Below, one piece after another: positions 16,574 to 21,772 of a DNA stretch of 63,863 nt. The stretch is taken from positions 1-63,863 of the forward strand of contig JAPOLY010000006.1 of the NCBI GenBank assembly GCA_029976805.1, in the 5' to 3' direction. A model generated the notes under the pieces. That model saw only the letters and a program-made list of their open reading frames with translations, had not been told where the DNA came from and made no database searches. The number at the start of each line of letters is the position of its first letter. Positions within the stretch are counted from its first letter, which is position 1. The DNA is from a bacterium. Lineage in GTDB: Bacteria > Planctomycetota > UBA8108 > UBA1146. Both the position numbers and the translations under genes were made by a program.

Positions 16574-17932
16574 TCATTCCTCTTCCCCAGGTCCGTAAAA
16601 CTTCTCCCGGGTCCCATGGAATAAACCATGAGCCTGATTCAGCTGCTCTGGATTGACTCCGGAGAGTTGGGCTAACGCCGTCCACTCTTCTTCAGAGCGC
16701 TGCCCCCATCCCATGGCACACAAACGCAACGCCAGAAACCTCACTCCCTGGGATGGATCGAGCCGTGCCGTTTCATCAAGAGTCTGCATCCACTCCAAAG
16801 GATAGGTCCCCGAAGAATCTCTCCCACCCAAAGCCCCATAGAGAACCCACAACCGGTAGGACTCTGAACGGGCGTCGTCACCCCTGCGATAGAGGAGTGG
16901 TTTCAATCGCTGTTCTCTGGCTCGATGGAAAGCGGTCAGTAATTCACTTCCCCGGTATTCGTTGCGGATGAAGAAATCTGCCCATTCATCCAGTACCGCA
17001 GCCAGTTGCTCTCCGTCCGCTTGCAGAAGGATTCCTTTTCCGACTTCCAACTGAGTCGGGATGTCCCGGGTACCGATTCTGGAAAGCACCTTTTGACGGA
17101 AACTGAAATCTTCACTCGAGTACAAGTGGGCGACGATACCCTGAGCAATTTTTTGAAACTCAGCATCATCCGATTCCAGCCAGTCGAGAGTCCATTGCTC
17201 CAACCACGGTGGTGTTTTCTGACTCATCTCTGATTGCAGTCCGCGGAGAACCACCTCTCTCCAGCGGGTCCGTATTGCCGATTCCTCTGAGTATTTCTCA
17301 GGCTCCGACAAAAAGTCGTCGATGAGTGAGAAGGACAGATTCCCATCGATTCCCATCGTGGAATCGAACCAACGATCCAAATGACCGAAATCCTCTAAAC
17401 CCTCTATCCACAAATCCACTGCCCACTCGAGAACTCCACGACGATCGATCCAGATTCCGGAAGGAATCGGATCCATCGACAACGCCGTTCCCAGAGCAAC
17501 CAGCAGAGCTCTCTTCTCGTAGAGAGTTCCCTGCCCTTCTGCCAGCAGTTGCAGCAGTTGATCCCCGATTCCGTTTTGGCATTCGAAGAGGTTTGTCAGT
17601 TCCTGTGCCACATCCGAACTGTACTTGCCCTTCTCGATCAGTCGCTGAAGAGGTTCACTCCAGGGACCGCTTCTCAAGGTGGAAACTGCTGAGGGTTTCG
17701 GAGTCGGGGTGACGGGCCCACTGGGATCGGCTGATTCATTCTCTTCGAAGATCTGATTCCCGGAATTCCCCGAAGACTCCGCAGCGGGTTCACTCTGGAT
17801 CAGTTCAAGACTGCCTTCGGAAGGATTCGTCAAATCGGGTCCGATCCTGTCGTGATCCCGGCCGACGTCGATGAACATCCACAGTGCCAGAATCATCGCC
17901 ATTGTCATCAGCAGAAGGGGAAGCCGCTTCAT
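16574..17932 (-). CDS. Membrane-anchored protein of unknown function
   Basis: 452 residues from ATG 17932, which has GGGAGG upstream and overlaps the TGA of the preceding gene (ATGA). An N-terminal hydrophobic segment at about residues 3-22 (LPLLLMTMAMILALWMFI) is a signal anchor. A Ser/Pro/Glu-rich linker follows to about residue 75, then about 370 residues of helical, Trp/Leu/Glu-rich sequence without recognisable motifs. It could be an alpha-solenoid, because helix-length units end in patterns such as LESDDAEFQKIAQGIVAHL. I do not recognise the family. It converges on the small selenoprotein gene. Confidence 0.65.
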   Translation of the reverse strand: MKRLPLLLMTMAMILALWMFIDVGRDHDRIGPDLTNPSEGSLELIQSEPAAESSGNSGNQIFEENESADPSGPVTPTPKPSAVSTLRSGPWSEPLQRLIEKGKYSSDVAQELTNLFECQNGIGDQLLQLLAEGQGTLYEKRALLVALGTALSMDPIPSGIWIDRRGVLEWAVDLWIEGLEDFGHLDRWFDSTMGIDGNLSFSLIDDFLSEPEKYSEESAIRTRWREVVLRGLQSEMSQKTPPWLEQWTLDWLESDDAEFQKIAQGIVAHLYSSEDFSFRQKVLSRIGTRDIPTQLEVGKGILLQADGEQLAAVLDEWADFFIRNEYRGSELLTAFHRAREQRLKPLLYRRGDDARSESYRLWVLYGALGGRDSSGTYPLEWMQTLDETARLDPSQGVRFLALRLCAMGWGQRSEEEWTALAQLSGVNPEQLNQAHGLFHGTREKFYGPGEEE

Positions 17933-18444
17933 GGAGTCCTCCCGAGACAATCAGTGCTATCCCCGCTCCCTGGACAGGGCAAAGAGGTCCAATGATCGAC
18001 GCTGTTCCACTGAATCGCCTCTCCTGAAGGAAGGCAGGCCCGACTCCAGCAAAAGATAAAAAAGTTGGTGCACTCACAGTGCAGTTTTTGCTGAAGCACC
18101 GCACGGGTCTGCCTCTCGAACAGACAGCAGCCATTTCGGGGAGTCACGACCGCATGGGCCGGTGTCAGCAAGACCCACAGTGGACACTGGGGCTCGGGGA
18201 AGGTCACGGTGGATCCCCAACGCTCGAGCAGCAGTTTGAGTGGCATGTCAGAGCAGGGATTGCTGACCGGTGAAACCACCTGATCCACAGCAATCTGCTG
18301 CGTTCCCAGATTCGGACAGTCCTGCTGACAGTCCATTCCCACGGGAATCTGTCCCTCCAGCGGATCACACAAGACAAACAGGAATACGACAGCAACCAAA
18401 CCGGGAATGCCTCCCCGACCGCGAAAACTCATCACTTGAAACAA
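17929..18444 (-). CDS. Cysteine-rich exported protein of unknown function
   Basis: 171 residues if translation starts at TTG 18444, 7 nt after GGGAGGAG; an ATG five codons later at 18432 is the alternative. A hydrophobic signal-like stretch, LVAVVFLFVLC, is followed by a mature part with 15 or more cysteines (for example CQQDCPN, NGCCLF, HCECTNFF, WSRACLP). Many are in pairs, and CPLWVLLTPAHAVV recalls a thioredoxin-like strand-helix. This suggests disulfides or a metal site in the periplasm, next to the DsbD gene. Its TGA overlaps the next ATG. The ribosome-binding site is buried in the terminator-like hairpin just upstream. Confidence 0.55.
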   Translation of the reverse strand: MFQVMSFRGRGGIPGLVAVVFLFVLCDPLEGQIPVGMDCQQDCPNLGTQQIAVDQVVSPVSNPCSDMPLKLLLERWGSTVTFPEPQCPLWVLLTPAHAVVTPRNGCCLFERQTRAVLQQKLHCECTNFFIFCWSRACLPSGEAIQWNSVDHWTSLPCPGSGDSTDCLGRTP

Positions 18445-18487
18445 AAACAAACTCCTCCCTTCGGGCGGTACCGAGGGGAGGAGTTTG
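18441..18487 (-). terminator. Terminator-like hairpin after dsbD that also buries a ribosome-binding site
   Basis: On the minus strand a perfect 12-bp stem, CAAACTCCTCCC (18487-18476) with GGGAGGAGTTTG (18459-18448), closes a 16-nt loop and is followed by TTTTTGTTT. This is a textbook intrinsic terminator about 60 nt beyond the dsbD stop. The descending arm contains GGGAGGAG, the best Shine-Dalgarno for the next gene (TTG 18444), so the fold would also block its translation. Confidence 0.75.
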
Positions 18488-18549
18488 CAGGGAATCAAAT
18501 CTTCTGTCAGCGAAGAGATCGCATGGATCGTCCGTGTAAGGTCAGTGTT

Positions 18550-21450
18550 TCAGGATTCTTCCCGTTCATTTCCTTCAACATTGAGTCTCAACTTCAGGGG
18601 TATGGCAAAGGTGCGCAGACGGTCATCCCCGTCATAGATACCCCCGACCACCCGAGCTCTGAGAACGTACTCACCCTGCAAATCATCGCCGACCCGGAAG
18701 GTGGCAAAAGCGGAGAAATCTCCATTGAGTGCAGAGACTTCCGTTCCCTGATAGGTCGCCTTTTCTTCTCCCTGATAGGTCCAGGCACTCTCACGGGTCA
18801 GCACCGTGTAGTCCTTGCCCTTCTCGCGGATCTCCAATCCTTCGATCTGAATCCGACTCTCAAAAGCAGGGCGGTCCGTCAGGCCCTGATCGAGGAAGGA
18901 GATAAACTGCTCAGAACTATTGGTGAATGATTCCCGTGCCACTTCGAGCTGGTCACGACTGTCGAGCACGATGTAGGTCGGGTTCGCATAGTATCCGGTG
19001 ATGCGGATCTGCTGCTCCCGGTAGGTCGCCTCGATCTCACTGGTAGCGTCGTCGGTATAGATCTCAAAGAGTTCGTATTGGCTGAGCAACTGCTCAACTT
19101 CAGACTCGCGGAAAATGCCATTTTCCATGAGTCGGCAATTCTGTCAGGTATGCCCCGTGAAATTAAGGAACAGCGGTTTTCGCGGCCGCTCTCCTGACTC
19201 CATCTCCTGGCGGACTTTTTCGAGCTCGGCGACGAAGTCCACATCTCCTTCACGATCGAGGTGCTTCCACGGCAGGGAGGCTTTCTGGTGAAGACTGGGG
19301 ACCAGTAACTGGGCCTCAATGTTCTCGTTCATGCGCCAACCTGTGACCGCATAGAAGCAACTGCCCGCACCCAACAGGGTCAGCAACAGCAATCCGCCGC
19401 GACCCGCCGAAATCGATTTGACGGGAGAGTCGTGGGGAAAGCGCAACTTGCCGATGATGTTGAGCGCCATCGCGACCAGAGTGAGCCCCCAGATCGCCAT
19501 GATCACTTCACGGTTGACGACGTGACCAAAGCGCCAGTAGGTCGCCACGGCACTGAAGAACTTCCACGCCGCCAGCAGCTCGATGAAACCGAGGACCACC
19601 TTGACGGTGGAGAGCCAGCCGCCTGAGCGGGGCAAACCAGTGAGCATCTTTGGGAACAGGGCCAACAGCACAAAGGGGAAAGCAATCGTCGAGCTGAAGG
19701 CGAGCATCCCCACCGCGGCGAAACCGGGGCCCTCTCCTGCAGCCAGGGCCAACAGGGCGGCAACGATCGGTCCCACACAGGTAAAGGTGGTCACTGCGAA
19801 GACCAGTCCCATCACGAGAACACTGGCCGCACCTCCGCCCCCTCCTCCTCCACCCACACGGTTGCGGATGAAGGCCGGCAGCTGGATGTCGTAGTAACCG
19901 AACAAGCTGAACCCGAAGACGATGAAGAGGACACCGATGGCCAGATTGACGTAGCCATTGGTGGCCATGAAGTTGGCGCCTTCCTCACCGAGGAGAGCGG
20001 ACAACAGGAAACCGAGAGAAGTAAAGGAGACGACGATGCCTGCCCCAAACAGGGCGGCCAGACCGATGACCCGTGAGCGACTCTCATGGGCCTGTTTGGT
20101 GAACACGCTGACGGTGATCGGAATCATCGGATAGACGCAGGGAGTCACCAGTGCAAGGAACGCTCCACTGATGGCCAGCAGAATCACGCCCAGCAATCCC
20201 TGATCTTCAGTTTCAGACTGAATGTCCCCACGGAATGCGGGGATTCTCTTTTCCGGGGAAACCTTGCCATCGATCCGCAGGGTGACGATGTCTCCGCTTC
20301 CAATGGTGGAACCGGCTTCCAGAGTTGCGGTCAACTGCAAGTCATCATTGGCGAAGGTGGCCACGCGCGGGTCGCTCTCCTCAGCCAGCCCTGTAGCGGA
20401 ACTTTCCTCCGCCGCAGATCCGCTTCCCACAGGAAGGTCGAGGTTCAATCTCTCTTCAGGCAGACACATCATGGCGTCGCAGGACATCGACTCGACGATC
20501 AGCGGCAGAGTGCCCGAGGTCAGTTCTTCTTCGCCCTCATATTGGAGGGTGACCTCGAAGCGGGCCTTGCGCTGGTGCTTGATGCTGTTTCCACCGATCA
20601 GGGGATCAAAACCCTTGTAGGGTGCGGTCAGCTCCTTGACCTCGACCACCTTCAGGGAAGATCCATCGGCAGTGAGGAATCGGGTCGGAGTGCCATTTTC
20701 GGGATTCATTTCAAGGCCGTAGATGTGCCAGCCCCGTTCGATCTCCGCTCCGACTTCCACCTTGAAGGTTTCACCCGGGATCACTTTCCCGAGTGAGGGA
20801 ACGGTCCATTTCACGGGAGAATCATCCGCCTGGAAGGTCGCTGTCGCCGACTCTTTTCCGGGGGACTCGGTTCCCACTGTCACTTCTGTGCTGAGTACGA
20901 CCGTATTGGGCAGCAAGCACTCCTTGGCATCGCAGGCCTGGTAGGTCACGGAAACCGTTACCGTCCGCGGTCCCGGCTCCGCACCCTCCGGAGCACGAAG
21001 AGGGATCCTGAAGATCGTCTTTCCTTCGTGTTCGAGATAATACTCTTCACCCACTTCGCGCTCATGGGGCTCGGGTTCCGAGACCTCTCCGTCAAAGAGC
21101 AGGTCCTTCGATTCGAGAACCACGATGGAGGTGGCCACTCCCCACTCCGGATCCTGATTCAGGCCATAGATATGCCAGCCCCGCTCCATCGCGGCCTCGA
21201 GCTCCAGTTGGACAAGCCCACCCGGGGCCAGACCTTCTGCTTTTTTGAGGCTCACGGTGACCGGATTGTCCGATCCGAAGATGGCATCACCAAATCCACC
21301 GTCTCCAAATCCCCCAGCTCCCAATCCGTCCTGCTCCAATTGGTCGAGCAGCCCTCCTCCCGCCCCGGGCTGGGCCGGCAGGGTTTGATGGAAGCCTGGC
21401 AGGGTCAACATCGTGATCAGGGTCAGGATCCCCAGCAGGATATTTTTCAT
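18550..21450 (-). CDS. dsbD: Thiol:disulfide interchange protein DsbD, candidate selenoprotein with U-x-x-C active site (TGA at codon 769)
   Basis: 966 residues if the TGA at 19146-19144 is read through. Order: signal peptide (1-28); two DsbD N-terminal-type domains, each with its own cysteine pair (CDAKECLLP, CDAMMCLPEE); a CcdA-like membrane domain (about 430-700) with TPCVYPMIPIT and FTCVGPIVA; then a thioredoxin domain. The last begins KPLFLNFTGHT, then TGA, then QNCRLMENGIF. In DsbD homologues this position reads F-T-A-D/Y-x-C-x-x-C, so TGA replaces exactly the first active-site Cys and gives U769-Q-N-C772. The frame then stays open for 197 more codons, completing the thioredoxin fold (YELFEIYTDD...YANPTYIVLD) plus a beta-rich tail. 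DsbD passes electrons from cytoplasmic thioredoxin to periplasmic thiols. Start ATG 21450 has GAGGAG upstream. It is preceded by a glutaredoxin gene. Confidence 0.88.
19103..19133 (-). promoter_or_regulatory. SECIS-like hairpin inside dsbD, after the in-frame TGA
   Basis: In the mRNA sense, GACTC (19133-19129) pairs with GAGTC (19107-19103). A 3x3 internal loop (ATG/CGC) follows, then GAAAAT (19125-19120) pairs with ATTTTC (19116-19111) around the loop GGC. All eleven pairs are Watson-Crick. The apical loop starts 24 nt after the TGA, inside the 16-37 nt window for bacterial SECIS elements, and has GG at its first two positions. It lies wholly within coding sequence, as expected for bacteria. 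Confidence 0.78.
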
Positions 21451-21490: not shown

Positions 21491-21772
21491 TCAGCGGCTC
21501 GATTCGCGGGGGCCTTCGATGGCACGGACGATATCCTCCTCGGGGAATGCACCTCCACCGGGGGTGTAGGCACGGACCCATTGGTCACCGACGACGAGGA
21601 AGGGAATCCCCTTCTTGCCGGTTTCCTGCTCCAGGCGCTCGGCGGCACCTTCCACTTCGTCGATATTGACGACGTCGTACTCGACTCCGAGTCCGTCCAG
21701 AAAGCGGACAGCAACAGTGCAATCAGGGCACCAGGGGGCGCTGTACAACTGAATTTTGACGTGGTCACTCAT
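21491..21772 (-). CDS. Glutaredoxin-like protein
   Basis: 93 residues, ATG preceded by AAGAGG. Active site APWCPDCTVAVRFL (C-P-D-C), a cis-Pro motif KGIPFLVVGDQWV and a GG-type glutathione-site-like turn (YTPGGGAFPEED). Small cytoplasmic thiol oxidoreductase of the glutaredoxin/NrdH group. It ends with two stops in a row (TGA TAA) 41 nt before the dsbD start. The pair is very likely one operon and may share a redox task; that link is inferred. An extended -10 look-alike (TGCTAGCAT, minus strand, near 21846-21854) lies upstream. Confidence 0.88.
   Translation of the reverse strand: MSDHVKIQLYSAPWCPDCTVAVRFLDGLGVEYDVVNIDEVEGAAERLEQETGKKGIPFLVVGDQWVRAYTPGGGAFPEEDIVRAIEGPRESSR

Follow-up and report, generated by a model that had tools for sequence, protein, structure and literature searches.

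Does an in-frame TGA truncate a DsbD-like thiol reductase in a marine planctomycete, or does it place selenocysteine (Sec) in the active site of the enzyme? The question is raised by a contig stretch of 63,863 nucleotides, analysed as a whole and called here the window, from a genome of 2.88 Mb in 171 contigs that is 91% complete. With the internal TGA read through, the minus strand from 21450 to 18550 encodes 966 residues followed by a terminal TGA (18552-18550), and codon 769 (TGA, 19146-19144) is the sole internal stop of this frame. Retranslation reproduced the joined frame exactly, down to the coordinates and the residue number given in the original prediction, which had interpreted the gene as a UxxC selenoprotein of the DsbD type. 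Upstream of ATG 21450 the open frame continues to a GTG at 21768; we infer that translation starts at ATG 21450, which would give a signal-like N-terminus. In its context (NFTGHT-U-QNCRLMENGIF), codon 769 takes the place of the first Cys of the thioredoxin CxxC motif. Judged from sequence comparison, the gene almost certainly encodes a DsbD-like transmembrane thiol reductase with Sec instead of the first active-site Cys of its C-terminal periplasmic thioredoxin domain. The UxxC selenoprotein interpretation is supported by the conservation of the codon, by the sel genes of the genome, and by a selected hairpin after the TGA. The features of the locus and of the Sec machinery are collected in Table 1.

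Table 1. Predicted features of the DsbD-like locus and genes for Sec insertion in the same genome.
Feature	Position	Strand	Basis or detail
DsbD-like gene, predicted to contain Sec	18550..21450	-	966 codons + terminal TGA; N-terminal signal-like segment MKNILLGILTLITMLTL
In-frame TGA, codon 769, predicted to be read as Sec; first position of UxxC (UQNC)	19144..19146	-	
First DsbD_N-like domain (about aa 61-186), redox pair C173/C178	20893..21270	-	Pfam DsbD_N, 9.5e-12
Second, tandem DsbD_N-like domain (about aa 206-330), pair C324/C329	20461..20835	-	Similarity to first copy
Transmembrane domain (aa 427-633), redox pair C438 + C558	19552..20172	-	Pfam DsbD_TM, 3.2e-23
C-terminal thioredoxin-like domain (about aa 748-858), DsbD-gamma equivalent	18877..19209	-	Thioredoxin_7, AlphaFold model
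Resolving cysteine C772 of UxxC	19135..19137	-	Invariant in 135/135 homologues
Beta-rich C-terminal extension (aa 859-966)	18553..18876	-	Model strands at aa 866-958
SECIS-like stem-loop after TGA	19103..19133	-	Outer stem GACUC/GAGUC (5 bp)
Apical stem UGGAAAAU/AUUUUCCG, 8 bp	19127-19109	-	Loop GGC at 19119-19117
Probable transcription terminator	18449..18486	-	11-bp perfect inverted repeat AAACTCCTCCC/GGGAGGAGTTT then T-rich tract; read from sequence
selA	C61:9839-10933		Window's genome
selD	C61:11104-12027		Window's genome
tRNA-Sec (selC), anticodon tca	C61:12236-12329		Window's genome
selB	C157:2307-4187		Window's genome

Codon 769 was compared among planctomycetes by searching 392 genomes and retrieving the best matches that span it. 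This yielded 135 loci, with TGA in 92, TGC or TGT in 43, and TAA, TAG or any other codon in none; since these loci are the strongest matches and not a random sample, the resulting 68% of Sec forms applies to well-matched homologues and not to the phylum. Most of the planctomycete homologues examined have the Sec form. The TGA had been predicted to stand at the first active-site Cys of DsbD, and every homologue has either a Cys or a Sec codon there. C438, C558, and C772 are each found in all 135 homologues, so that residue 769 is the single active-site position that varies, exchanging between Cys and Sec codons only. In the family of the window's genome (f1), all 14 genes that reach codon 769 have TGA there, at identities of 44-100%, as do the one representative of a second family in the order and the named planctomycete MAG records of f1 relatives. 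Named relatives at 56-99% identity are nearly all Planctomycetota MAGs, and more distant Bacteroidales homologues have Cys at this codon.

Because the TGA recurs in 92 separate genomes, a base-calling error is excluded. An ordinary stop followed by a decaying pseudogene, or some other sequencing error, would fit the observation that TGA is the commonest stop in the window (27 of 37 long ORFs), but it has to contend with a codon that is never TAA or TAG in any homologue, with the invariant resolving Cys, and with strong selection on the downstream part. Beyond the TGA, dN ranges from 0.007 to 0.55 and dS from 0.2 to 2.3; in a relative of 84% identity the downstream values are 0.07 and 1.34, and dN stays well under dS before as well as after the TGA. 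By these rates, strong purifying selection acts on the part beyond the TGA, which belongs to a working protein; an ordinary stop is refuted by the conservation and has a negligible probability. Stop usage also bears on a general reassignment of TGA to another amino acid, e.g. tryptophan. A conserved gene that tolerates an in-frame TGA would be compatible with this, whereas those same 27 long ORFs and the DsbD-like gene itself end in TGA, and relatives invariably have Cys, never Trp, aligned with codon 769. Stop usage and the aligned residue thus exclude tryptophan, and a general reassignment has a vanishingly small chance of being correct.

The Sec machinery is complete: all four genes to which the original prediction had looked for confirmation (selA, selB, selC, and selD) were found in the window's genome. 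Its selD has an in-frame TGA of its own in the motif CAGUAAKL, which is a well-known selenoprotein site and serves as an internal positive control. Across genomes, a strong selA match was found in 87 of the 92 with TGA versus 35 of the 43 with Cys (Fisher p = 0.026), and the association gives p = 0.033 with selB and selD added, these two having been checked solely in genomes without strong selA. Taken alone, this association is weak, as the Sec trait persists in most Cys genomes too, and selA presence by itself was rejected as a discriminator between TGA and Cys forms for its poor separation. Among the five TGA genomes without strong selA, G004 has selB, and G221 and G284 have selB together with a TGA-containing selD; in G220 (77% complete, about 760 contigs) and G075 (90% complete), both with the TGA form of DsbD, no selA, selB or over-cut-off selD was detected. 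Four genomes with a completeness estimate of 100% (G372, G223, G323, and G287), of which all except G223 are assembled in one or two contigs, carry the Cys form and no over-cut-off selA, selB or selD. As to gene order, selA, selD, and tRNA-Sec are grouped on one contig of the window's genome (C61:8000-14274), and selB lies on another.

Decoding of UGA as cysteine by an unusual tRNA, at least in part, would also account for Cys being the aligned residue in homologues, and cysteine tRNAs that read UGA are reported from some bacteria. Such decoding is nevertheless very unlikely in view of the complete selA/selB/selC/selD set with a normal tRNA-Sec, of the use of UGA as a stop elsewhere, and of a SECIS-like structure selected after the TGA. 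A hairpin with a GG loop had been proposed at the appropriate place, and folding bears this out: the stem-loop has an MFE of -15.5 kcal/mol (z = -2.8 versus dinucleotide shuffles), and the GG of its apical loop lies 24 bases downstream of the UGA. The corresponding range in bacterial SECIS elements is 16-37 bases.

Selection on the RNA was separated from selection on the protein by resampling synonymous codons according to the codon usage of each gene. The excess of the best in-place hairpin over these controls has a mean z of 1.55 in TGA genes versus 0.39 in Cys genes (Mann-Whitney p = 1.5e-7), and total folding energy points the same way (p = 6.5e-4); Cys genes, too, are mildly more structured than their controls. 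The position of the hairpin is not fixed phylum-wide, as its inner stem shifts among clades, and a single fixed stem for the whole phylum was tried and abandoned. Watson-Crick pairs at fixed positions number 4.34 in TGA genes versus 3.66 expected, and 3.52 versus 3.56 in Cys genes. The stem bases covary in several clades, as in GGACCG.UGGAA.CGGUCC (G116), GAACCG.UGGAA.CGGUUC (G222), and GUCUCG.UGGAA.CGAGAC (G099). At codon +7, Glu is encoded by GAA in 44 of 82 TGA genes versus 14 of 40 Cys genes, the gene-wide frequency being near 0.33-0.35. At gathering thresholds, Rfam reported tRNA-Leu alone in the whole window and no SECIS match.

Partial termination is general at Sec codons, which lends some plausibility to a programmed truncation. 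In this scenario the main product, a membrane protein, would end at the UGA and lack the thioredoxin domain, and ATG 19128, in frame and six codons downstream of the TGA, would start separate translation of the remainder. However, this ATG is swapped for GTG, CTC or other codons in many relatives, the separate product would, according to the structural model, be devoid of the active site and of the first strands of the fold, and the Cys-form genes are continuous. Programmed truncation is thus highly improbable, and insertion of Sec into a single DsbD-like polypeptide is the preferred reading.

The domain architecture of this polypeptide comprises, in Pfam order, DsbD_N, DsbD_TM, and Thioredoxin_7, the last at an E-value of 1.1e-4 and 22.7 bits (cut-off 27). 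The name DsbD given by the original prediction holds in so far as all three modules (DsbD_N, DsbD_TM, and a C-terminal thioredoxin domain) are present, with a sub-cut-off thioredoxin match, and each has its redox pairs: C173/C178 and C324/C329, C438/C558, and U769/C772, respectively. Yet the protein scores 131.4 bits against the NCBIfam model of classical DsbD (PRK00293), whose cut-off is 330; for this reason it is filed as DsbD-like, the safer name, and not as classical DsbD. Like the E. coli enzyme, it combines DsbD_N, a DsbD_TM domain with two redox cysteines, and a C-terminal thioredoxin domain with a pair spaced by two residues. It differs in its Sec, its two tandem N-terminal domains, where E. 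coli DsbD has one, and its beta-rich C-terminal extension.

The two DsbD_N-like copies share 29% identity across 121 columns (E 6e-14), and both contain a C-x4-C pair. Among homologues aligned at these positions, C173 is kept in 32 of 33 and C178 in 33 of 33; C324 and C329 are each found in 33 of 34, with one gap. In G004, three separate upstream matches to N-terminal query segments were observed, suggesting further N-terminal repeats in that relative. At the other end of the protein, Thioredoxin_7 is matched by 31 of 31 aligned relatives, the window protein alone lying below the cut-off, and PF13098 gives weak matches in 28 of 31 relatives and 21.4 bits (cut-off 27) in the window protein. An AlphaFold model of the C-terminal 266 residues, built with 31 relatives, has a mean pLDDT of 83. 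It matches the Bacteroides DsbD-like C-terminal domain 3f9u and, with TM values of 0.74-0.79 by target length, the E. coli DsbD gamma structures 1uc7, 2fwf, and 1vrs; a profile search against PDB sequences found the same families. A BLASTP comparison of the extension, about 108 residues long, with the rest of the protein gave no significant similarity. The distance between TGA and gene end is 190-198 codons throughout the f1 loci.

Column 769 was left out of the maximum-likelihood tree, which was built from the membrane and thioredoxin parts and gives no direction of gain versus loss. At least 10 changes of the U/C label are needed on this tree, 6 of them forced by well-supported branches, whereas shuffled labels need 36. 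Because of these changes, Sec and Cys have replaced each other repeatedly, which is the classic mark of a genuine selenoprotein. We also put forward, as a tentative idea with somewhat less than an even chance of being right, that planctomycete DsbD normally carries Sec, perhaps as its ancestral state, so that the periplasmic reducing pathway of the phylum would run through a selenylsulfide. If true, this pathway would help to explain why the Sec trait is so widely retained in Planctomycetota, where Sec and Cys have changed places repeatedly.

How new is such a protein? The original prediction had raised the possibility of a new selenoprotein family member, and this is only partly upheld. The literature and NCBIfam yielded neither a description of a full-length Sec-DsbD nor a curated family model; NCBIfam 20.0 shows none for a UxxC DsbD. 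Since we take the conserved domain cd02953 to be the DsbD gamma domain, fragments of Sec-DsbD, or of a similar family, had probably been seen already in the ocean data of 2008. The GOS survey of that year listed 22 Sec sequences as 'Trx-like 2 (thiol disulfide interchange protein)', cd02953, with UxxC (PMC2398784). UxxC thiol:disulfide interchange proteins had already entered computational lists of selenoproteins, and they share with the window protein the thioredoxin fold and Sec as the first residue of CxxC (Zhang 2006; PMC2398784, PMC1794560, PMC13188914). In contrast, the sections of these papers that concern them name ocean reads and a few Deltaproteobacteria, with no planctomycete, and describe no transmembrane or N-terminal DsbD domain. 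A GOS Prx-like protein resembles the window protein in joining a UxxC domain to PF11412 (DsbD_N), but its domain is peroxiredoxin-like and no DsbD membrane domain is described for it (PMC9402790). The genome paper on planctomycetes from Porphyra reports Sec machinery and selenoproteins in two strains, DsbD being unmentioned in its main text (PMC4807772).

A review of 2026 recognizes 119 prokaryotic selenoprotein families and subfamilies, a list from which a full DsbD with UxxC is absent (PMC13188914). Closest to the window protein in this list are the UxxC 'thiol:disulfide interchange protein' (PF13098, WP_011366075.1) and TsoB, a rhodanese/DsbD fusion-like selenoprotein (PMC13188914). TsoB shares with the window protein a DsbD-type membrane and thioredoxin part, but has two Sec residues in UxxxxU (PMC13188914), where the window protein has one in UxxC. 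Membership in TsoB (NF045694) was considered and rejected, with 116.5 bits against a cut-off of 805 and a single TGA; the profile matches the window protein best over its membrane part. None of the sampled planctomycetes passes this cut-off. Some of them (L176-L179 and others) have a DsbD-type protein in an uninterrupted frame that reaches up to 334 bits with the TsoB profile, also below the cut-off. The novelty is moderate, and lies in a full-length Sec form of a DsbD-like reductase that is widespread in the phylum and labile in evolution, allowing for the fragments recorded earlier.

In E. coli DsbD, cytoplasmic thioredoxin donates electrons to the membrane cysteines; from there they reach the C-terminal thioredoxin domain, next the N-terminal domain, and finally the periplasmic clients. 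In the planctomycete enzyme, SelB with Sec-tRNA-Sec would bind the hairpin and insert Sec at the UGA, where a fraction of ribosomes may halt and release an inactive product of 768 residues. By analogy with E. coli, cytoplasmic thioredoxin would reduce the membrane pair C438/C558, which would in turn reduce the U769-C772 selenylsulfide; the selenol could then reduce the N-terminal disulfides C173/C178 and C324/C329, from which electrons would pass to periplasmic clients. U769, as first residue of the thioredoxin site, would be the nucleophile, and Sec probably speeds the step of the thioredoxin domain or hardens it against inactivation by over-oxidation. Such an enzyme would tie selenium supply to periplasmic disulfide reduction in a large environmental phylum. 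With at least ten exchanges between them on the tree, the naturally occurring Sec and Cys forms of one three-module enzyme also make a good test of the benefit of Sec to a thiol relay. Because gene callers normally stop at TGA, dozens of genomes probably list this core redox protein of the envelope as a truncated membrane protein that lacks its catalytic domain.

No redox partner was found among the neighbouring genes, which encode a DAHP synthase, a glycosyltransferase, a xylose-isomerase-like protein, and unknowns. Downstream of the DsbD-like gene, two ORFs of 458 and 189 aa without Pfam match occupy 16574-18498 on the minus strand. A promoter-like match over the TGA was dismissed, as the scan yields equally many in shuffled sequence. 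The probable terminator is absent from the output of the consensus scan, its loop exceeding the limit of that scan.
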